In this document: one piece after another, positions 1-7,872 of the stretch
How positions within the stretch are numbered: position 1 is the first letter of the stretch
How the letters are laid out: the number at the start of each line of letters is the position of its first letter
Source of the DNA: Lachnospiraceae bacterium
GTDB lineage: Bacteria; Bacillota_A; Clostridia; Lachnospirales; Lachnospiraceae
Length of the DNA stretch: 7,872 bases
NCBI GenBank assembly: GCA_024699595.1
Contig: JAILPG010000006.1
Coordinates: 1 to 7,872 of the forward strand
Reading direction: 5' to 3'
Program-made: the position numbers and the translations under genes
The notes under the pieces: model-generated
Told to the model about the DNA's origin: nothing
Seen by the model: only the letters and a program-made list of their open reading frames with translations
Databases searched by the model: none

Positions 1-1
1 C

Positions 2-559
2 ATCAAGGATATAAAGTGCGATCTGACCGATGAGATAGCCGAGGGCCTTATAAGAACTGTCATTAAGAATGCACGGATACTTATGCAGAAGCCCGATGAT
101 TATGATGCCATGGCAGAGATCATGTGGGCGAATTCACTGTCCCATAACAACCTGACGGAATGCGGAAGAGGCAAGGATTTTTCCGTACATAAGCTCGGAC
201 ATGCGCTCAGTGCCAAATATGATGTTACCCATGGGGCTTCACTGTCTGCAGTTTGGGGCAGCTGGGCAAGATACCAGATGGATGAAGGCCTTGACAGATT
301 CGCAAGATTTGCTGAAAAGATATGGGATATAAAGGGTACAGATAAAAAGGCTGCCGCTTTGGAAGGCATTGAGAAGACGGAAGCTTTCTTCAGGGAGATA
401 GGAATGCCTGCAAGTCTTTCGGAGCTTAAGGTCGAGCCCTCTGATGAGGATATTAAGAAGCTTGCACTTGACGCTACGATGAATGATACCGTAAAGCTCT
501 CGCGCCTCAGACCGCTTGATGCGAAGGCTGTCGAGGAGATCTACAGGGCGGCGAAGTAG
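2..559 (+). CDS. Iron-containing alcohol dehydrogenase, butanol-dehydrogenase type (3' part; 5' end outside window)
   Basis: This is the C-terminal 185 residues of a group III metal-dependent alcohol dehydrogenase (BdhA/YqhD-like), a cytoplasmic enzyme that reduces aldehydes to alcohols with NAD(P)H. The frame is open from base 2 and ends at TAG 557-559; the ATG at 83 is internal, because the codons before it read as good family sequence. The signature is HKLGHALSAKYDVTHG: its first and last histidines, 14 residues apart, match the two metal-ligand histidines known in FucO and YqhD. The Asp and His ligands of the N-terminal half are off the window. The C-terminal all-helical part, ending EEIYRAAK, looks complete. 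The hairpin array starts one base after the stop codon, and no ordinary terminator separates the two. Fermentative aldehyde reduction is the likely role; cofactor and substrate cannot be told from this part. Confidence 0.93.
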   Translation: MKDIKCDLTDEIAEGLIRTVIKNARILMQKPDDYDAMAEIMWANSLSHNNLTECGRGKDFSVHKLGHALSAKYDVTHGASLSAVWGSWARYQMDEGLDRFARFAEKIWDIKGTDKKAAALEGIEKTEAFFREIGMPASLSELKVEPSDEDIKKLALDATMNDTVKLSRLRPLDAKAVEEIYRAAK

Positions 560-560
560 A

Positions 561-1240
561 ATACCCACTAAAGCATGCCGAAGAACAGATCAGTAGGTAT
601 GAAGAAATTAACAGGCTCAGAAGAATACCTACTAAAGCATGCCGAAGAACAGATCAGTAGGTATGAAGGAAATAACAGGATCCTAAGAATACCTACTAAA
701 GTATGTAGAATGGCAGATTAGTAGGTATGGAGCAACCAACAAGCCTGGAAGAGTACCCACTAAAGCATGCTGAAGAGCAGATTGGTAGGTATGAAGGAAA
801 TAACAGGCTCAGAAGAATACCTACTAAAATAGGGCGAAGAGCAAATTAGTAGGTATGGAGCAACCAACAAGATTCTAAGAATACCTACTAAAATAGGGCG
901 AAGAGCAAATTAGTAGGTATGAAGCAACCAACAAGCCTGGAAGAGTACCCACTAAAGCATGCTGAAGAGCAGATTAGTAGGTATGGAGGAAATAACAGGA
1001 TCCTAAGAATACCTACTAAAGTATGTAGAATGGCAGATCAGTAGGTATGAAGCAACCAACAAGCCTGGAAGAATACCCACTAAAGCATGCTGAAGAGCAG
1101 ATTAGTAGGTATGAAGCAACTAACAAGCCTGGAAGAATACCTACTAAAGCATGCCAAAGAGCAAATCAGTAGGTATGAAGCAACTAACAAGCCTGGAAGA
1201 ATACCTACTAAGTCAGGTCAAACAGAAGATTGGTAGGTAT
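561..1240. repeat. Tandem array of eleven 64-bp units, each a 40-nt stem-loop plus 24-nt linker
   Basis: Hairpins start at 561, 625, 689, 753, 817, 881, 945, 1009, 1073, 1137 and 1201, exactly 64 bp apart with no insertion or deletion. Each is an 11-nt left arm (consensus ATACCTACTAA), an 18-nt loop and an 11-nt right arm (TTAGTAGGTAT). Units 3, 5 and 6 have perfect stems. The others differ from consensus only by transitions at arm positions that leave a G-U pair in one of the two strands. Loops fall into classes, for example agcatgctgaagagcaga (units 4, 7, 9), aatagggcgaagagcaaa (5, 6) and agtatgtagaatggcaga (3, 8). Unit 11 has the most divergent loop, and the sequence after it no longer matches the linker. 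Linkers start ga/gg-ag and end in aaga, with three alternative cores. The array fills the whole 710-base gap between the dehydrogenase and the amr genes. I do not recognise it as a named family. Confidence 0.95.
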
Positions 1241-1257
1241 GAGAGGGAATCAGGAAA

Positions 1258-1264
1258 GAAGGAG
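1258..1264 (+). promoter_or_regulatory. Ribosome binding site for the LigB-like gene
   Basis: The sequence gaaggag lies five bases before the ATG at 1270 and supports that start. It begins 17 bases after the last hairpin of the array, so array structure could lie in the 5' leader of this gene if transcription starts upstream. Confidence 0.7.
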
Positions 1265-1269
1265 ACAGT

Positions 1270-2070
1270 ATGCCGATACTTGCAGGATATATGGTACCGC
1301 ATCCGCCGCTTGCCGTACATGAAGTCGGAAGGGGCGAAGAGTATAAGGTTCAGAAAACGCTGGATGCATTTGACGCGGTCGCAAAGGACATAAGTGAATT
1401 AAAGCCGGAGACCATCATCGTTACGTCTCCGCACAGCATTATGTATTCTGATTACTTTCATATTTCTCCCGGAGAGAAGGCAGCAGGCGATTTTTCGGGC
1501 TTCAGGGCGGGTATGGTAAAGATCGATGCTTCTTATGATACGGAGCTTGTCGGTACGTTATGCGATATCTGCAGGGAAAAAGACTTCCCGGCTGGAACCG
1601 AGGGAGAGCGTGCAAAAGAGCTCGATCATGGAACGATGGTGCCGTTATACTTTGTCAACAAGTATTATAAGGACTATCGGCTTGTCCGCATAGGCCTGTC
1701 GGGGCTGCCTCTTAAGGAGCATTACAGGTTCGGTTCTCTTATTTCAGAGGCGGTAAACAGGACAGGCCGAAAGGTCGTGTTCATAGCAAGCGGTGATCTG
1801 TCGCATTGCCAGAAAGAGGACGGGCCTTACGGCTATAAACCGGACGGACCAAAGTATGATGAGAAGCTGATGGAAGTCATGTCGAAAGGGGAATTCGAAA
1901 AGCTGCTTGACTTTGATGAGCGCTTTTTAAGGAGTGCGGAGGAATGCGGACACAGGTCCTTTGTCATCATGGGCGGAGCGTTAATGGACTATGAGTATGA
2001 CAGCAGGGTGCTCTCGCACGAGGCAACCTTCGGAGTAGGCTACGGGATCGGAATATACAGGTGCAGATAA
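1270..2070 (+). CDS. amrB: AmmeMemoRadiSam system MEMO/LigB-like protein (class III extradiol dioxygenase superfamily)
   Basis: A 266-residue soluble protein of the LigB / MEMO superfamily. Conserved pieces in order are MVPHPPLAV (His11), VTSPHSIMYSDYFHISPG (His55), LDHGTMVPLYFV (His120), IGLSGL near 141-146, IASGDLSHCQ (Asp176, His179) and AEECGHRSF near 223-231. In LigB enzymes the equivalent early histidines and a late Glu bind iron and a further His acts as base; here Glu224 or Glu225 is a candidate ligand. The reaction is unknown, and MEMO homologues are not established dioxygenases. The symbol is given from context: the gene is followed after 24 bp by an AMMECR1 gene and then by the radical SAM partner. 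The sequence resembles the LigB domain that is fused to AMMECR1 in many Clostridia more than free MEMO. The start is fixed by gaaggag and by the array ending just upstream. Confidence 0.85.
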   Translation: MPILAGYMVPHPPLAVHEVGRGEEYKVQKTLDAFDAVAKDISELKPETIIVTSPHSIMYSDYFHISPGEKAAGDFSGFRAGMVKIDASYDTELVGTLCDICREKDFPAGTEGERAKELDHGTMVPLYFVNKYYKDYRLVRIGLSGLPLKEHYRFGSLISEAVNRTGRKVVFIASGDLSHCQKEDGPYGYKPDGPKYDEKLMEVMSKGEFEKLLDFDERFLRSAEECGHRSFVIMGGALMDYEYDSRVLSHEATFGVGYGIGIYRCR

Positions 2071-2080
2071 AAAAGAGCAA

Positions 2081-2087
2081 AAAGGAG
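2081..2087 (+). promoter_or_regulatory. Ribosome binding site for the AMMECR1 gene
   Basis: The sequence aaaggag sits seven bases before ATG 2095, inside the 24-bp gap that follows the upstream stop. It shows that the AMMECR1 reading frame can start on its own despite being in the same frame as the preceding gene. Confidence 0.75.
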
Positions 2088-2094
2088 AAAAGCC

Positions 2095-2607
2095 ATGAGT
2101 ATGGATCCGTATGTGTCCCTTGCAAAGGACACAATAGATGCTTATATAAAGGGAAGAAAGGTTATAGAGCCGCCGGAAGGACTGCCTGAGGAAATGACAA
2201 AAGAGCAGGCCGGAGTATTTGTTTCGATACACAAGTTCGGGATGTTACGCGGCTGTATAGGCACCTTTTTACCGACGACCGAAAACATCGCACATGAGAT
2301 AATAAGCAATGCCATATCCGCATCTACGAGGGATCCGAGATTCCCGGAGATAAGGGAAAATGAGCTTGCTGACCTTGAGATAAATGTTGATGTGCTGACT
2401 GAGCCGGAACCAGCAACCAAGGATATGCTCGATCACAAGAGATACGGGGTGATCGTAACAAAGGGCTACAGGAGAGGCTTGCTGCTTCCTGATCTTGAAG
2501 GCGTGGACAGCGTGGATGAGCAGATATCCATTGCCAAGCAGAAGGCGGGCATCGCCCCTTATGAGGATGTGGAGCTGCAGCGCTTTGAGGTGGTACGGCA
2601 CATATAA
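2095..2607 (+). CDS. amrA: AmmeMemoRadiSam system protein A (AMMECR1 domain)
   Basis: A 170-residue protein that is essentially one AMMECR1 domain. The hallmark LRGCIG motif is at residues 51-56 (Cys54), followed by the conserved STRDPRFP stretch at 77-84 and a strand [13 protein letters not shown] near 94-106. The C-terminus, with [26 protein letters not shown], also matches the family. AMMECR1 proteins are conserved in all domains of life; the invariant motif forms a probable active site or ligand pocket, but no reaction can be read from the sequence. It lies 24 bp after the LigB-like gene in the same frame, with no stop in the intervening eight codons, so a single TAA separates it from a LigB-AMMECR1 fusion. 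Translation of both from one message is expected. A second ATG at 2101 is a possible alternative start, but spacing favours 2095. Confidence 0.93.
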
Positions 2608-2625
2608 ACACGGGCATGTTGAGAA

Positions 2626-2642
2626 GCAAAGCATAACTTTGC
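2626..2642. other. Small perfect hairpin in the amrA-amrS gap
   Basis: GCAAAG and CTTTGC pair perfectly around a five-base loop (cataa). No T-run follows, so it is not a convincing terminator. The overlapping TGCAGG (2640-2645) can instead pair with CCTGCA (2659-2664), so two alternative small stems exist here. It lies in the 185-bp gap upstream of the 44-bp repeats. Confidence 0.4.
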
Positions 2643-2673
2643 AGGAAACAAGTGTATACCTGCATGCTACGAA

Positions 2674-2771
2674 GCCGTGAAGCAACAAAAAGTGAGATGG
2701 GCATAGAATCTGAGCGTGCCGTGAAGCAACAAAAAGCGAGATGGGCATAGAATCTGAGCATGTCGTGAAGA
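2674..2771. repeat. 44-bp direct tandem repeat, two full copies plus a partial third
   Basis: Copies start at 2674 and 2718, agree at 42 of 44 bases, and are followed by a 10-base partial copy from 2762. Each begins gccgtgaagcaac and contains gatgggcatagaatctgagc. A short stem spans each junction: GGCAT (2700-2704) with GTGCC (2716-2720), and GGCAT (2744-2748) with ATGTC (2760-2764). Both keep five pairs on the plus strand, using one G-U pair at different positions. The piece gaagcaac is shared with the linker of the 64-bp array, which may be chance. The repeat ends about 20 bp before the amrS start. Confidence 0.85.
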
Positions 2772-2792
2772 AATACCTGGAGATATAGATAA

Positions 2793-3713
2793 ATGAAGAT
2801 AAAATGTGATGTCTGCATGCATCACTGTGAACTGAATACAGGACAGAGAGGGCTCTGCAAGGCAAGATATAACAGGGGGGACGGCATCTATCCCGCAAAC
2901 TACGGATTTCTGACTTCGCTTGCTCTCGATCCGATCGAGAAAAAGCCGCTTAAGTACTTCAGGCAGGGTTCAATGATCATTTCGGTCGGAAGCTTCGGCT
3001 GTAATCTCAGATGCCCTTATTGTCAGAACAGCAGCATTTCTCAGGCATACGGTGACAGGGATCATCTTACCGAATATGCTGCTCCGCTTGAAACAAGGAT
3101 CGCTCCCGGGATGGAGAACGGCAGCAGAGGGAATGCAGACCGACAGGAGTTTGCCGAGACATCCTATTATTCACCGGAAGACCTTAAATATATAGCCGTG
3201 CGGGCAAAGCGTGACGGAAATATCGGAGTTGCCTATACCTACAATGAGCCGATGATCGCGTATGAATACATAAAGGATACCGGAGAGCTCATCCGTGAGG
3301 AAGGAATGGTAAATGTGATCGTGACGAACGGGCAGGCAGAGATCCCGGTGCTTGAGAGGATACTTCCCGTTACCGATGCGATGAACATCGATCTAAAGGG
3401 CTTTTCGGATGAGTGTTACAAGGCATTGGGCGGAAGCTTTGAGCTTGCAAAAGACTTTATCAAAAGAGCAGCAAAAGACTGTCATGTCGAGCTCACGACA
3501 CTTGTCGTTCCGGGCCTTACGGACAGTCCGGAGGATATGGAAAAAGAGGCTGCCTGGATAGCTTCGATCGATCCCGATATTCCGCTTCATATCACAAGAT
3601 TTTTCCCGAGGTACAAGATGACAGATCCTGAGCCGACGGATATCGGGCTGATGAAGAAGCTGCGTGAGATCGCAGAGAAAAAGCTTAACAGAGTCTGCCT
3701 CGGAAACGTGTGA
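2793..3713 (+). CDS. amrS: AmmeMemoRadiSam system radical SAM enzyme
   Basis: A 306-residue radical SAM protein. The cluster motif is CNLRCPYC (Cys70, Cys74, Cys77; CX3CX2C), expected to bind a 4Fe-4S cluster and S-adenosylmethionine. An N-terminal group of Cys5, Cys8, Cys12 and Cys22 (CDVCMHHC then GLC) is typical of this AmrS family and related activases and may bind metal or a second cluster. Also visible are TYNEPMIAYEY near 149-159, VTNGQ near 177-181, MNIDLKGF near 197-204 and LTTLVVPGLTD near 234-244, all usual in the barrel. The stretch at about residues 85-125 looks like an insert. The protein ends at LGNV; from memory, many relatives carry a further Cys-containing tail there. The start is ATG 2793 with tggag about ten bases upstream. 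It follows amrA after a 185-bp gap containing tandem repeats and presumably works with the AMMECR1 and LigB-like proteins; the reaction is not known to me. Confidence 0.92.
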   Translation: MKIKCDVCMHHCELNTGQRGLCKARYNRGDGIYPANYGFLTSLALDPIEKKPLKYFRQGSMIISVGSFGCNLRCPYCQNSSISQAYGDRDHLTEYAAPLETRIAPGMENGSRGNADRQEFAETSYYSPEDLKYIAVRAKRDGNIGVAYTYNEPMIAYEYIKDTGELIREEGMVNVIVTNGQAEIPVLERILPVTDAMNIDLKGFSDECYKALGGSFELAKDFIKRAAKDCHVELTTLVVPGLTDSPEDMEKEAAWIASIDPDIPLHITRFFPRYKMTDPEPTDIGLMKKLREIAEKKLNRVCLGNV

Positions 3714-3722
3714 GGTTAAAAT

Positions 3723-3829
3723 GCCCCCCGTAATAGGAAAAAGAGCCGCGCAGGGTGCAATGTAAGAAAAGAAAAGCACCCCGTAGAGGAAAAACAGCCG
3801 CGCAGGGTGCATTGAAAAAAATAAAAAAT
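3723..3829. repeat. Two-copy 52-53-bp tandem repeat with GCACCC/GGGTGC arms
   Basis: Two similar units, about 3723-3775 and 3776-3829, share ccccgta, an A-rich piece, the perfect 15-mer gccgcgcagggtgca (starting at 3745 and 3797) and an A-rich tail. A one-base indel separates their spacing. GCACCC (3776-3781) can pair with GGGTGC on its left (3753-3758, loop 17) or on its right (3805-3810, loop 23), giving mutually exclusive hairpins. Read on the minus strand, each unit is a GC-rich stem followed by a T-rich run, so it resembles a weak terminator for antisense transcripts. It fills the gap between amrS and the hydrolase gene. Confidence 0.8.
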
Positions 3830-3830
3830 G

Positions 3831-3850
3831 CGGGCAGGACAGCATGCCCG
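3831..3850. other. Hairpin abutting the hydrolase ribosome binding site
   Basis: CGGGCA (3831-3836) and TGCCCG (3845-3850) form a perfect 6-bp GC-rich stem with an eight-base loop. It ends where the GGAGGAG ribosome binding site begins, sharing its first G. If transcribed, the stem could influence ribosome access to the 3861 start; this is inference. Confidence 0.55.
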
Positions 3851-3856
3851 GAGGAG
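3850..3856 (+). promoter_or_regulatory. Ribosome binding site that fixes the hydrolase start
   Basis: GGAGGAG lies four bases before ATG 3861. It rules against the longer reading from ATG 3828, which would place the hairpin and this site inside the gene and add eleven residues unlike the family. Confidence 0.8.
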
Positions 3857-3860
3857 TAGT

Positions 3861-5033
3861 ATGAAACAGGATTTTACATTTCCGTCGTCGGACGGACGGA
3901 CGACAATACATGCCGTGAGGTATGTGAGTGAGAACAATGAGAAACCGAAGGCCGTTTTGCAGATATCACACGGAATGGTCGAGTATATCGAGAGATATTC
4001 TGACTTTGCGGAATATATTGCAGAACACGGCTTTGTCGTATTCGGGCATGATCATGCAGGTCATGGTGAGTCGGTTGTTTCCAAGGATGATCTTGGATAT
4101 TTCGGAAAGGAGCCTAGCAGGATACTCATTTCTGACATGCATACGTTAAGATGCATGGCATCTGAGGAATATCCGGAAATACCGTATTTTATGCTTGGAC
4201 ACAGCATGGGATCATTTTTGCTTAGAGAGTATCTGTCTGTGTATGAAACGGGAATGATCAAAAATGACATAAGAGAAGAAGGCTTTACGGGCGCTTTTGA
4301 TATTGCGGACAGAAAAGATGATATGGATATGAACGGTGGAAATGGCGATCGCTCAGATCCGGATGCGAGAAGCTCAGCCGCAGGCGAAGAGGACATTTCA
4401 GGCATATCTGAAGATGAAGATGCACAGGCAGGCGGCCCCAGGTCTTTAAGCGGTGCGATCTTGATGGGTACCGGATTTTCGGCACCCGGGCTGGTGAGCT
4501 TTGTGCAGTTTTTGATAGGATGTGTCTCACTGTTTCGCGGTGAGAGGTACAGGTCTCCGTTTATCCAGAAGCTGACCTTTGACAAATCCTACGAGGGCTA
4601 CGACATGACCGGTGAGGTTCCCGAGAGGAGCTGGCTGACCAAGGATGTAGAGATCGTAAAGAAATACTACAGTGATCCGAAATGCAACTACCTGTTTACG
4701 GCAAACGGTTACAAAGGACTGATGGAAGCAGTAAAAAGTGCATGTTCAAAAGAAGATGCAGATAAGATATCAGAGGAGCTGCCGATATTGCTTGTCTCAG
4801 GAGCAGAGGATCCGGTGGGAGCAAGGGGCGACGGCGTAAGGCGGTCGGAAGCGCTGTATAAGGAAGCCGGAATAAAGAATCTGACCTGCAGGCTGTTTGA
4901 CAACGACAGACACGAGATCATCAATGAGACGGACAGGGATCAGGTATATGAAGAGATACTGTTCTGGATGCAGAATCACTTAAAACCCCGCAGTGAAGAA
5001 CCGTATTTAGAAGATGAAAAAACAGAGGTCTAG
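3861..5033 (+). CDS. Alpha/beta hydrolase, monoacylglycerol lipase / lysophospholipase-like, with acidic insert
   Basis: A 390-residue serine hydrolase of the Hydrolase_4 type (PldB/YtpA/MGLL relatives). The oxyanion region is SHGMVEYIERYSDFA (His37-Gly38), and GHDHAGHGES follows at 62-71. The nucleophile elbow is GHSMGS with Ser115. The acid is Asp317 in VSGAEDPVG and the base His351 in NDRHEI, so the triad is complete and an active esterase or lipase is likely, acting on lysolipids or monoacylglycerols by homology. No signal peptide or membrane segment is seen, so it is probably cytoplasmic. Residues about 134-195, between the nucleophile elbow and the next strand (SGAILMGTGFSAP), form a hydrophilic Asp/Glu/Gly/Ser-rich insert that makes the protein longer than usual family members (roughly 250-320 residues). 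The C-terminal tail after 375 is also acidic. It sits between amrS and hflK, and a shared message is not proven. Confidence 0.9.
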   Translation: MKQDFTFPSSDGRTTIHAVRYVSENNEKPKAVLQISHGMVEYIERYSDFAEYIAEHGFVVFGHDHAGHGESVVSKDDLGYFGKEPSRILISDMHTLRCMASEEYPEIPYFMLGHSMGSFLLREYLSVYETGMIKNDIREEGFTGAFDIADRKDDMDMNGGNGDRSDPDARSSAAGEEDISGISEDEDAQAGGPRSLSGAILMGTGFSAPGLVSFVQFLIGCVSLFRGERYRSPFIQKLTFDKSYEGYDMTGEVPERSWLTKDVEIVKKYYSDPKCNYLFTANGYKGLMEAVKSACSKEDADKISEELPILLVSGAEDPVGARGDGVRRSEALYKEAGIKNLTCRLFDNDRHEIINETDRDQVYEEILFWMQNHLKPRSEEPYLEDEKTEV

Positions 5034-5079
5034 GAACACAATTTGATCATTATATCAACAGAGAAATCGGAGGAAAAAA

Positions 5080-6075
5080 ATGAAGATCGATAAACTGAAG
5101 ACCGTGATACCGATCGTGATAGTGGTGCTTTTGGTGATAATCGTCGCCGGAGGCTCCGTATATTCGGTATCCGAGCAGGAACAGGCTGTTGTCACCATGT
5201 TTGGCAAGATAACGGATATAAAGACCGCAGGGCTTTATTTCAAGATGCCGTTCATACAGAATGTTCACAAGGTGGATACCACGACACACGGAATGGCCAT
5301 AGGCTACACCGAGTCGGCCCAAAAGGATATTAACGACGAGGACAGATATGTGGAGGCCGAAGCACTTATGATCACTTCGGACTTCAATCTGGTTGACGTT
5401 GATTTTTACCTGGAATACAGGGTTTCGGATCCTGTCAAATATCTCTATGCATCCAAAGAGCCTGAGATCGTACTGAAGAATCTTGCGATGGCCAGCATCA
5501 GATCCACGATAGTAAATTATAAGGTCGATGATGTCATCACCACGGGAAAAAGCAAGATCCAGGCCGAGATCAAGGATAAGCTCATGAAGGAGCTTTCGGA
5601 CAATGAGATCGGTCTTGAGGTAATGAACATATCAATGCAGGATGCAGAGCCCCCGACAACCCTGGTATCGGCTGCCTTTAAGGCTGTCGAGACAGCAAAG
5701 CAGGGAGCGGACACAGCTGTCAACAATGCAAACAAATACAAGAACGAGCAGGTACCGGCAGCAGAGGCAAGTGCCGATGCCATTATCCAGAGAGCTGAGG
5801 CCAAAAAAGCATCCCGTATCGCTGAGGCTGAGGGCCAGATGGAAAGATTCAACGAGACCTATGAGCAGTATAAGAATTATCCCTACATAACAAAGAAGAG
5901 GATGTTTTACGAGACAATAGAAAATATCCTTCCGAATACCAAGGTGATAATAACCGACGGTCAGACTCAGACAATGTATCCGCTCGACAGCTTCACCGGA
6001 GACAGCGGGCAGAACGATGATCAGACGATAAACGATCTTTTAAATCCTGTGGATGAGGAAGAAACGCAGGAATAA
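5080..6075 (+). CDS. hflK: HflK-like SPFH/band 7 membrane protein
   Basis: A 331-residue protein with one N-terminal membrane segment (about residues 8-29, IPIVIVVLLVIIVAGGSV), then an SPFH/band 7 domain beginning VSEQEQAVVTMFGKI and TAGLYFKMPFIQNVHKVDT. A long Ala/Glu/Lys-rich helical stretch follows at about 195-260 (including EASADAIIQRAEAKKASRIAEAEGQ), with a final acidic tail. This order is typical of HflK, which in E. coli joins HflC in a large membrane complex that holds and modulates the FtsH protease. The Gly/Pro-rich N-terminal extension of the E. coli protein is missing, as is common in Firmicutes. The start is supported by cGGAGG six bases upstream. hflC follows after 53 bp in the same direction. 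No ftsH is in the window, so its link to FtsH here rests on homology. Confidence 0.9.
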   Translation: MKIDKLKTVIPIVIVVLLVIIVAGGSVYSVSEQEQAVVTMFGKITDIKTAGLYFKMPFIQNVHKVDTTTHGMAIGYTESAQKDINDEDRYVEAEALMITSDFNLVDVDFYLEYRVSDPVKYLYASKEPEIVLKNLAMASIRSTIVNYKVDDVITTGKSKIQAEIKDKLMKELSDNEIGLEVMNISMQDAEPPTTLVSAAFKAVETAKQGADTAVNNANKYKNEQVPAAEASADAIIQRAEAKKASRIAEAEGQMERFNETYEQYKNYPYITKKRMFYETIENILPNTKVIITDGQTQTMYPLDSFTGDSGQNDDQTINDLLNPVDEEETQE

Positions 6076-6128
6076 AGAGCCTTTTCAGGGAATGCCGGAA
6101 GAATAAGCAGACGGAGGACTTAAGATAA

Positions 6129-7022
6129 ATGAAAGAATCAACAGTGAGAAAAGGGTTAATAGCCATTATCATCGCCCTTGTAGTCATAATACTGTTCGGC
6201 TCGTCGGTGTTTACGGTAGCCGAGGATGAGTACGCAGTGGTGATGGAATTTAACAAGATAACGAGAGTCGTTGACAAAGCGGGACTCAACTTCAAGGTGC
6301 CCGTGATACAGTCGGTAAGGATCATATCCAAGGCCATACAGATCTATGATATCGAGCCGAGCGATGTAATGACGAGTGATAAAAAATCGATGATAGCCGA
6401 TGATTATATCCTGTGGAAGGTCACCGATCCCGCCGTGTTTATGAAGACATTAAACGGATCTGGAACAAATGCGCAGTATCTTGCAGGTGTTGCCACCTAT
6501 AATGCCACCAAGAGCATCATATCTTCAATGACGCAGGATGAGGTCATAGCTGCAAGAGGAGAGAAGCTTACGGGAATAATCACCGAGGATGCCAATGAAG
6601 ATATGCAGAAATACGGCGTTGCCATACTGCAGGCTCAGATCAAATCACTGGATCTTCCCGATGATAACAAGGAAGCAGTTTACGAACGTATGATATCTGA
6701 AAGAAACAACATCGCAGCCTCATATGCCGCCCAGGGTGAGGCTTCAGCTCAGAAGATCAGAAATGAGACAGACAGGACGGTGTCTGTAATGAAAGCCGAT
6801 GCGGAAAAGCAGGCATCCATCCTCGAAGCAGAGGGCGAAGCGGAATATATGAGCATTTTAAAGGACGCGTACAATAATCCTGACAAGGCAGATTTTTACA
6901 ATTTCACCAGAAGCCTGGATGCACTCAAGTATTCCTTTACGAGAGGAGACAAGACCATAATCCTCGATAAGGATTCGGAGATCGCTTCCCTGCTTTATGG
7001 AACAATGCTTGAGGAGGAGTAA
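6129..7022 (+). CDS. hflC: HflC-like SPFH/band 7 membrane protein
   Basis: A 297-residue partner of the preceding HflK. It has a single N-terminal membrane segment (about residues 9-28, GLIAIIIALVVIILFGSSVF) followed directly by the SPFH domain, with VAEDEYAVVMEFNKI, AGLNFKVPVIQSV and the strand LWKVTDPAVFMKTL. A helical Ala/Glu-rich region at about 190-250 includes ERNNIAASYAAQGEASAQKI and ADAEKQASILEAEGEAEY, and the protein ends with the usual FTRGDKTIILDKDSE stretch. Length and order fit HflC (about 290-330). The gene follows hflK by 53 bp with no terminator, so co-transcription and joint assembly of the two proteins are expected. Its GGAGG lies about 11 bases before the ATG, longer than in its neighbours, so translation could be somewhat weaker. 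A strong terminator begins 24 bases after the stop. Confidence 0.91.
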   Translation: MKESTVRKGLIAIIIALVVIILFGSSVFTVAEDEYAVVMEFNKITRVVDKAGLNFKVPVIQSVRIISKAIQIYDIEPSDVMTSDKKSMIADDYILWKVTDPAVFMKTLNGSGTNAQYLAGVATYNATKSIISSMTQDEVIAARGEKLTGIITEDANEDMQKYGVAILQAQIKSLDLPDDNKEAVYERMISERNNIAASYAAQGEASAQKIRNETDRTVSVMKADAEKQASILEAEGEAEYMSILKDAYNNPDKADFYNFTRSLDALKYSFTRGDKTIILDKDSEIASLLYGTMLEEE

Positions 7023-7046
7023 ACTGTAGATCAGCTCCAATAACAA

Positions 7047-7104
7047 AAAACCCGCTGATATTTTCATGAGGATCTCATGAAATACAGCGGGTTTTCTTTT
7101 TTTT
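7047..7104. terminator. Bidirectional rho-independent terminator between convergent genes
   Basis: AAAACCCGCTG (7047-7057) pairs with CAGCGGGTTTT (7085-7095), and inside it TTTCATGAG pairs with CTCATGAAA around the loop GAT, with a small internal loop between. A T-rich run to 7104 follows on the plus strand, ending hflC transcription. On the minus strand the same stem is also followed by a T-run, so it can end the convergent gene, whose stop is at 7103-7105. Confidence 0.95.
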
Positions 7105-7609
7105 AGTCTACATCATCATAGTCATCCCAGTCGTAATCATCGTAATTATCATAATCATCGTCATTGTCATCGCCGGAGCTGCCTGATGATCCCGTATCGT
7201 CATAGTAGATATCGTTCTGTCCGGGAGTGTTTTCTGAACTGTTATCATCAGTATCATAATCTCCTTCTGCGGCCTTGTAGAGCCATTCTTCCAGCTCGGG
7301 ATCCTTAGCGAGCTCATCCATGAGCACATCCAGCAGCTCATCTGCATCCTCACCGCCCATGGAAATGACATATTCGATCAAAGCGGCATAGTAGTCAAGC
7401 TCATCCTCGCTAAAGAACAGAGCCATAAAAGTATCTGCATCCATGCCGTCAAAGCCCTGTATCTCACCGTTTTCATCTATCAGATAGAACAGCTTTGTGA
7501 CCGGATCATAATGGTATCCAAGATCAAGATCTCCGTTGTAGTGATACACGTCACCGGTATCTGCAAGATACAGGGTATAAGCGTTTGTATCTTCGCTGTA
7601 ATGCTCATA
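7103..7609 (-). CDS. Unrecognised acidic protein, C-terminal part of a frameshifted gene
   Basis: The minus-strand frame is open from about 7621 down to the TAA at 7103-7105. Taken alone, the first ATG is at 7549, giving 148 residues, but no good ribosome binding site was noticed there. The codons before it, from 7609, also read naturally (YEHYSEDTNAYTLYLADTGD), so this is best seen as the continuation of the frame in the next entry after a one-base shift. The visible part has a GYHYDPVTKLFYLIDENGEI segment, a helical acidic middle (ELDYYAALIEYV and DELLDVLMDELAKDPELEEWL) and a tail of about 45 residues made almost only of Asp, Tyr, Asn, Gly and Ser. No domain is recognised and no function is proposed. 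It shares the terminator at 7047-7104 with hflC. Confidence 0.6.
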   Translation of the reverse strand, partial: YEHYSEDTNAYTLYLADTGDVYHYNGDLDLGYHYDPVTKLFYLIDENGEIQGFDGMDADTFMALFFSEDELDYYAALIEYVISMGGEDADELLDVLMDELAKDPELEEWLYKAAEGDYDTDDNSSENTPGQNDIYYDDTGSSGSSGDDNDDDYDNYDDYDWDDYDDVD

Positions 7610-7872
7610 GCAGCCTGGCCGTTATCGCCCTTGAACTGCTGATACTGGAACAGAGGCAGGGGCTGGCCGTTAAGATGAGGCCATTGACCGTTGAAGTTGA
7701 ATACCGGAGCCGACCCACCTGCCGTAGTACAGAAGGCGTTTGTACGGCCAAGTGAGATATATTTGGAATCACTGTCCTTTAATATCACCCTCATCTCGGC
7801 ATTCTGAACCTGCGACGCTGTAAGCCCAAGCTCGGATTCGACGGCAAATCCGCCGTTTCGCACATCTTTATA
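7480..7872 (-). CDS. Unrecognised protein, N-terminal part of the frameshifted gene (5' end outside window)
   Basis: The frame is open from the right window edge. A GTG codon at 7863-7861 could start it, but the three codons before it are also open, so the true start is probably beyond 7872. It reads well to about 7610 (ESELGLTASQVQNAEMRVIL, ISLGRTNAFCTTAGG, VFNFNGQWPHLNGQPLPLFQYQQ, FKGDNGQAA). After that the frame turns into poor sequence (ITAKIQTLIPCILQIPVTCI) and stops at 7480. The adjacent frame becomes the good one at the same place. The aromatic, Asn/Gln-rich composition suggests a folded, perhaps secreted or surface domain, but no family is recognised and no signal peptide can be judged because the start is missing. 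Confidence 0.55.
   Translation of the reverse strand, partial: YKDVRNGGFAVESELGLTASQVQNAEMRVILKDSDSKYISLGRTNAFCTTAGGSAPVFNFNGQWPHLNGQPLPLFQYQQFKGDNGQAAMSITAKIQTLIPCILQIPVTCITTTEILILDTIMIRSQSCSI

Follow-up and report, generated by a model that had tools for sequence, protein, structure and literature searches.

A helically phased array of putative inverted half-sites upstream of a LigB-family gene in Lachnospiraceae and its probable relation to a PD-(D/E)XK-like protein family

The stretch of DNA analysed here (the window) comprises 7,872 nucleotides of a Lachnospiraceae bacterium (GCA_024699595.1, contig JAILPG010000006.1, positions 1 to 7,872) and contains an array of eleven inverted-repeat units. 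The array fills the gap between an open reading frame (ORF) for an Fe-dependent alcohol dehydrogenase (2-559) and a LigB-family gene. It begins directly past the stop codon of the former, and 27 bp separate its end from the ATG of the latter at 1270, in agreement with a preliminary description that had placed it right after a stop codon and just before the ribosome binding site of an amr gene. AMMECR1 and radical-SAM genes come after the LigB-family gene, and the three presumably form an AmmeMemoRadiSam cluster. A promoter and terminator scan of positions 400-1400 revealed none.

Tandem Repeats Finder (TRF) assigned the array (Table 1) a period of 64, 10.7 copies and 80% matches. The left arms start at 562, 626, 690 and so on up to 1202, the right arms lie 29 bp further on, and all ten steps are exactly 64 bp, so that the eleven evenly spaced stem-loops of the preliminary description were confirmed, as were its variable loops and linkers, which sort into few classes. 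Each unit is 38 bp across, with the arms TACCYACTA .. YRGTAGGTA. The suggestion of selection or active homogenisation of the unit length needs one correction: a constant period in one homogenised array results from tandem copying anyway, and it is other arrays that give evidence of constraint.

Table 1. Array features of the window
Feature	Coordinates	Basis
Entire array (11 units with a period of 64 bp)	558-1242	TRF, unit layout, arm positions
Unit 1, inverted arms, span 38 bp	562-599	Unit layout and arm positions
Unit 2	626-663	Unit layout and arm positions
Unit 3	690-727	Unit layout and arm positions
Unit 4	754-791	Unit layout and arm positions
Unit 5	818-855	Unit layout and arm positions
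Unit 6	882-919	Unit layout and arm positions
Unit 7	946-983	Unit layout and arm positions
Unit 8	1010-1047	Unit layout and arm positions
Unit 9	1074-1111	Unit layout and arm positions
Unit 10	1138-1175	Unit layout and arm positions
Unit 11	1202-1239	Unit layout and arm positions
Possible second array of this type, with about 2 copies at period 52 (five turns) and different arms (GCACCC .. GGGTGC)	3719-3826	TRF; inverted repeat span 36; weak, only two copies

A set of 120 distinct units was assembled from the window and from whole-genome loci, with spans of 33-42 bp permitted. The span was 37 bp in 74 units and 38 bp in 42 (116/120); the other four appear partly spurious. Right-to-left arm-start distances (62 cases) were 34/35 bp in 56 and 44/45 bp in 4, two classes one helical turn apart. 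Removal of loops at least 75% alike left 64 units. Pairing of the arms is at chance level past base pair 11, and covariation exceeds that of shuffles at base pairs 6-9, with few sequences behind the excess at 6-7. Arms and lengths are kept while the sequence of loops and linkers varies.

The preliminary description had raised the question whether such arrays recur in relatives with the same period. They do recur, their period is not fixed at 64 bp, and their flanks led to a gene for a protein of about 258 amino acids (aa). In the arm family of the window the period is mostly 62-64 bp, in genome G001 it is 74 bp, and other whole numbers of turns are found elsewhere (G, C and L numbers are our handles for genomes, contigs and loci). 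A search with TACCYACT-N12..34-AGTRGGTA in the genus of G001 revealed 49 forward matches in 8/37 genomes and 8 matches of the backward control; all 49 are 35-38 bp long, though the pattern permitted 28-50 bp. A stricter pattern gave 4 matches (37 or 38 bp) in 3 of 397 sampled genomes of the family and 5 in the control; here the motif does not outnumber the control, and the narrow span alone is informative. G177 showed 10 matches of 37 bp each and G432 showed 37 matches of 37-39 bp, both with 0 in the control, and a single 27-bp match in G136, a genus-mate of G432, is probably due to chance. TACCTAC-type arms are present in other genera, and at unrelated loci of other genomes TACCTAC / GTAGGTA arms occur with different loops and linkers in a fixed geometry; the uniqueness to one strain that the preliminary description associated with a passive minisatellite was not found.

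The arrays lie between diverse housekeeping genes in co-directional, convergent or divergent arrangement, and we saw no function common to the flanking genes, whose names outside the window are our reading of translations. Sampled stretches of G010, G012, G015 and G016 (235 kb) contained no clear intergenic inverted-repeat array and one weak 87-bp repeat, and those of G007, G008, G013, G024, G028 and G032 contained no array of period 50-76; arrays are therefore not everywhere. One protein-based scan detected 104 relatives of the LigB/Memo gene, the closest in Lachnospiraceae metagenome-assembled genomes, of which 80 were kept; TACCTAC-type arms were near 0/80 of these loci. Arrays with other arms were found directly upstream of a memo-type gene in two genomes (L002, 794-960; L065, 4238-4572). 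In G006, one array (L168, 5373-5681) changes its arms from TGACTGCG to ATACAGCGA and keeps a 73-bp register.

In G177, G018, G021, G266 and at one G009 locus, adjacent units are for the most part no copies of each other. The 46 start-to-start distances of up to 300 bp (for G177 among the matches listed, for G266 among the five units on C50 that have at most 2 mismatches) were 54, 62-64, 84, 85, 94, 95, 105, 106, 115, 116, 149, 158, 159, 168, 178 and 231 bp. The best period of these non-copied spacings in a scan of 8-13 bp is 10.5-10.55 bp, one turn of DNA. Leaving out the distances of 61-65 bp and two homologous contigs gave n=19, R=0.90 and exp(-nR2)=1.8e-7; the same statistic was 5e-6 on 15 distinct values and 3e-4 on ten merged values. 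Motif versus control counts were 149 versus 81 in G177 and 214 versus 50 in G266 at up to 3 mismatches, and 11 versus 27 in G018, 21 versus 15 in G021 and 12 versus 19 in G009 at up to 2; because of these high control counts single matches mean little and clusters count. A 10.5-bp register is to be expected of sites that are recognised from one side of the DNA duplex; neither tandem slippage nor RNA structure predicts it. The spacings on multiples of 10.5 bp in relatives support, far more than the window alone could, the earlier suggestion that the units may be protein-binding sites facing the same side. Some G018 arrays have a common 63-105-63 layout and may be related.

Comparison of flanking ORFs revealed related proteins adjoining TACCTAC arrays, with arms as in the window array, in G266 and G014, which belong to different genera. 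The protein (about 258 aa) combines a variable, fast-diverging N-terminal helix/beta domain with a conserved PD-(D/E)XK-like C-terminal domain. It has 658 relatives at E<=0.001 and is present in 16/37 genomes of the genus and, at E<=1e-10, in 42/120 sampled genomes of the family. E152, E169, D186 and E201-H202 are invariant in 32 sequences and match the PD-(D/E)XK core, with H in place of K; these residues are among the best-conserved parts of the protein. The C-terminal domain is near the PADLOC candidate defence proteins PDC-S68 and PDC-S69, and some members are near HEAT_CxxC_PD-DEXK; the C-terminus also matches PD-(D/E)XK proteins by VIA. Neither Pfam, at cut-off, nor NCBIfam assigned a family to the protein. 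Among 32 members, Pfam PDDEXK_3 matched one only (at 0.07), one matched PF01385 OrfB_IS605 at 0.2, and the Y1 transposase PF01797 was not among the 25 families listed of the 31 found at E<=1, the other six being weak. Sequence searches of the PDB gave nothing below E 0.1, Foldseek with both models nothing at E<=0.001, and PHROGs weak matches only (best 3e-6). An AP2- or integrase-type N-terminus had been expected; Foldseek gave no such match. The gene copy in G014 (L181, 17801-18643) contains an in-frame TAG.

To analyse the linkage of gene and array, we inspected the upstream flanks of 38 copies besides the two of the discovery: 10 copies in the genus, 20 listed family hits, selected mostly so as not to lie near a contig start, and a further 8. 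An array was called if one of two automatic measures detected it. Such an array lies directly upstream in 33/38 copies (8/10, 17/20 and 8/8, respectively); none was called for L259, which has just two units, for L260, with 160 bp of available sequence, or for L273, L280 and L284. Downstream of the ten genus copies we found arrays in 0/10, in somewhat shorter flanks of about 420-560 bp. Control upstream regions, sampled from 1511 and drawn partly from stretches that had been fetched because they bear arrays, contained an array in 22/600. Among the listed family hits, 14 plus-strand genes start at most 700 bp from a contig start, versus 2 minus-strand genes whose 3' end falls in that interval; upstream arrays therefore probably break assemblies. 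In G266 the protein gene stands between two near-copy arrays (L114, 324-484 and 1375-1475), an arrangement that resembles a mobile unit and is the only two-sided case among the copies looked at.

The upstream arrays follow the same register. Those with at least 3 units (20) have median steps of 52-53, 62-64, 74-75 or 84 bp (R=0.95 at 10.5), and addition of four two-unit cases gives n=24 and R=0.83. For every copy with a distance or TRF period (n=36) R is 0.86, and 34/36 lie at most 1.5 bp from a multiple of 10.5; the exceptions, L273 (71) and L280 (38), are not convincing as arrays. Five copies (L262, L264, L276, L281, L285) lie behind a gene end that we take to be rpsI-like; counting them once gives n=32, R=0.84 and exp(-nR2)=1.5e-10, and another version, leaving out L294 and some others, gives 7e-11 (n=26).

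The arms differ between most copies of the protein gene and are common to L262 and L276, and to L288 and L294. In six genomes (G021, G009, G006, G001, G002, G014) the gene-proximal arms recur elsewhere in the same genome. The arms upstream of the G021 C11 gene, CTACGTGT .. ACACGTAG, which also occur at a second G021 locus (L221), form 55 units in G021 and 0 in 36 other genomes of the genus; the 50 of 55 units listed are 39 or 40 bp long and distributed over 16 loci on 6 contigs. The G009 gene is preceded by GCTAACA .. TGTTAGC arms, of which G009 has 11 occurrences in all, five at a second locus; the one match in another genome is part of a long palindrome in G041. One of two further copies in G001 has ACACTAA .. 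TTAGTGT with a step of 53, like L001 and L156. The G006 gene has the arms GGCTAAGAA, in agreement with the memo-proximal array of L065, though two different arm types of G006 had been put forward in advance. In a descriptive comparison of protein N-termini with arms, N-terminal scores were low and scattered and C-terminal scores high.

We interpret the window array as a dispersed satellite member of a two-part system of arrays and protein, with a probability of roughly 0.7. One part would consist of arrays of paired inverted half-sites (arms of about 6-12 bp, roughly 30-42 bp across) in mutual helical register, the other of the 258-aa protein family, encoded directly downstream of an array with mostly copy-specific arms. 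Geometry, helical phasing, gene-array linkage and same-genome recurrence of arms in six genomes are observed. The protein may bind the arms as dimers lined up along one face of the DNA, both at its own promoter, in autoregulation, and at dispersed arrays. By analogy with the REP-associated tyrosine transposases (RAYTs) of repetitive extragenic palindromes (REPs), the predicted nuclease domain might help to seed and maintain arrays in intergenic DNA, the mechanism that we find likeliest, at slightly less than even chances. The G018 protein copy and the G001 copies lack TACCTAC arms, and for several dispersed arm families no gene was found, which weighs against the interpretation. On balance we favour an undescribed class of bacterial system, in which a nuclease-like family of fast-changing DNA specificity, each copy behind its own phased half-site array, would seed matching satellites between housekeeping genes, protein and sites co-evolving.

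The same-face phasing could also be a requirement of cooperative filament or loop formation in a nucleoid-architecture or regulatory system, with the protein as a sequence-specific DNA-bridging or transcription factor, its nuclease fold inactive or incidental, and the dispersed arrays as operators or anchoring sites. Their position between diverse housekeeping genes in every orientation would fit; the strong conservation of the PD-(D/E)XK residues and the lack of a common function seen among flanking genes make this unlikely, if well worth considering. The likeness to PADLOC candidates may imply defence or self-marking, with arrays that titrate the nuclease or mark host DNA while it acts on invading DNA. 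This we regard as improbable, since the PADLOC match covers the nuclease end only; plasmids and viral contigs contained no relatives of the protein, an absence uninformative on targets.

The structured RNA leader or multi-hairpin transcript considered by the preliminary description, or an mRNA stabiliser, would be in line with the covariation, with the many arrays between co-directional genes and with an RNA fold of the window array better than 20 shuffles (z -6.0), which would be expected of any tandem inverted repeats. Loops are unpaired, yet constant in length, and loop and linker lengths are kept where pairing has fallen to chance; because an RNA hairpin needs no such fixed lengths, the RNA reading is unsupported. 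Moreover, 10.5-bp phasing of units is a property of duplex DNA, arrays also lie between convergent genes (L218, L104), and Rfam gave 0 matches above the gathering score in the window, so that we consider it very improbable. Slippage in one lineage, producing a passive minisatellite, would be in line with the homogenised units of the window array; it is hardly credible, since the arrays of G177, G018, G021, G266 and G009 have non-copied units that keep arms, span and the 10.5-bp register without tandem copying, and the arms occur in other genera.

CRISPR and TIGR arrays resemble the present arrays in having regularly spaced repeats, variable sequence between them and an adjoining nuclease gene. 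Unlike these, units within an array are here often mutual copies, arms are short and inverted, and lengths follow the DNA turn. In contrast to homing endonucleases of the I-Bth0305I type and to TnsA, the protein goes with an upstream site array; no intron, intein or Tn7 partner turned up, although no search was aimed at them. Excerpts of two papers describe REPs and bacterial interspersed mosaic elements as extragenic palindromes dispersed in the genome, in regularly spaced alternating arrays, beside and co-evolving with a cognate protein gene (PMC2817692, PMC3733652). Similarly, palindromes here are extragenic and dispersed (G021) and lie beside the protein gene (33/38 upstream). RAYTs are IS200/IS605-type tyrosine transposases with two flanking REPs, whereas here a PD-(D/E)XK-like protein, with no Y1 domain PF01797 among the families listed for it, has its array upstream, units are in helical register and loop sequence is free; the parallel is close in behaviour, and the protein is of another fold class. 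STAR elements of Staphylococcus are, in the excerpt of PMC3532100, an intergenic direct-repeat motif of 14 bp with locus-specific spacers in tandem units of about 50 nt and of unknown function, and that excerpt describes no partner protein or helical phasing; TACCTAC arms differ, by eye, from the STAR consensus quoted there. The excerpt of the SPADE paper (PMC6344855) contained nothing on such arrays, and among open-licence papers we found no published description of an array and protein system of this kind.

A widespread unannotated protein is here tied to a class of genomic repeats. Its copies make up a natural panel in which proteins are paired with candidate target sites, so that DNA specificity could be readable from sequence, and how a family of repeats spreads and remains in phase along a bacterial chromosome becomes a testable question.

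The possible second array of the window (Table 1) is intergenic, with the radical-SAM gene on one side and a hydrolase gene on the other, and its arms are similar to the ones that precede the G021 C33 copy of the protein gene (L258). A third intergenic tandem repeat, of period 44 and with weak arms, lies at 2674-2770 and is not clearly of the same kind.
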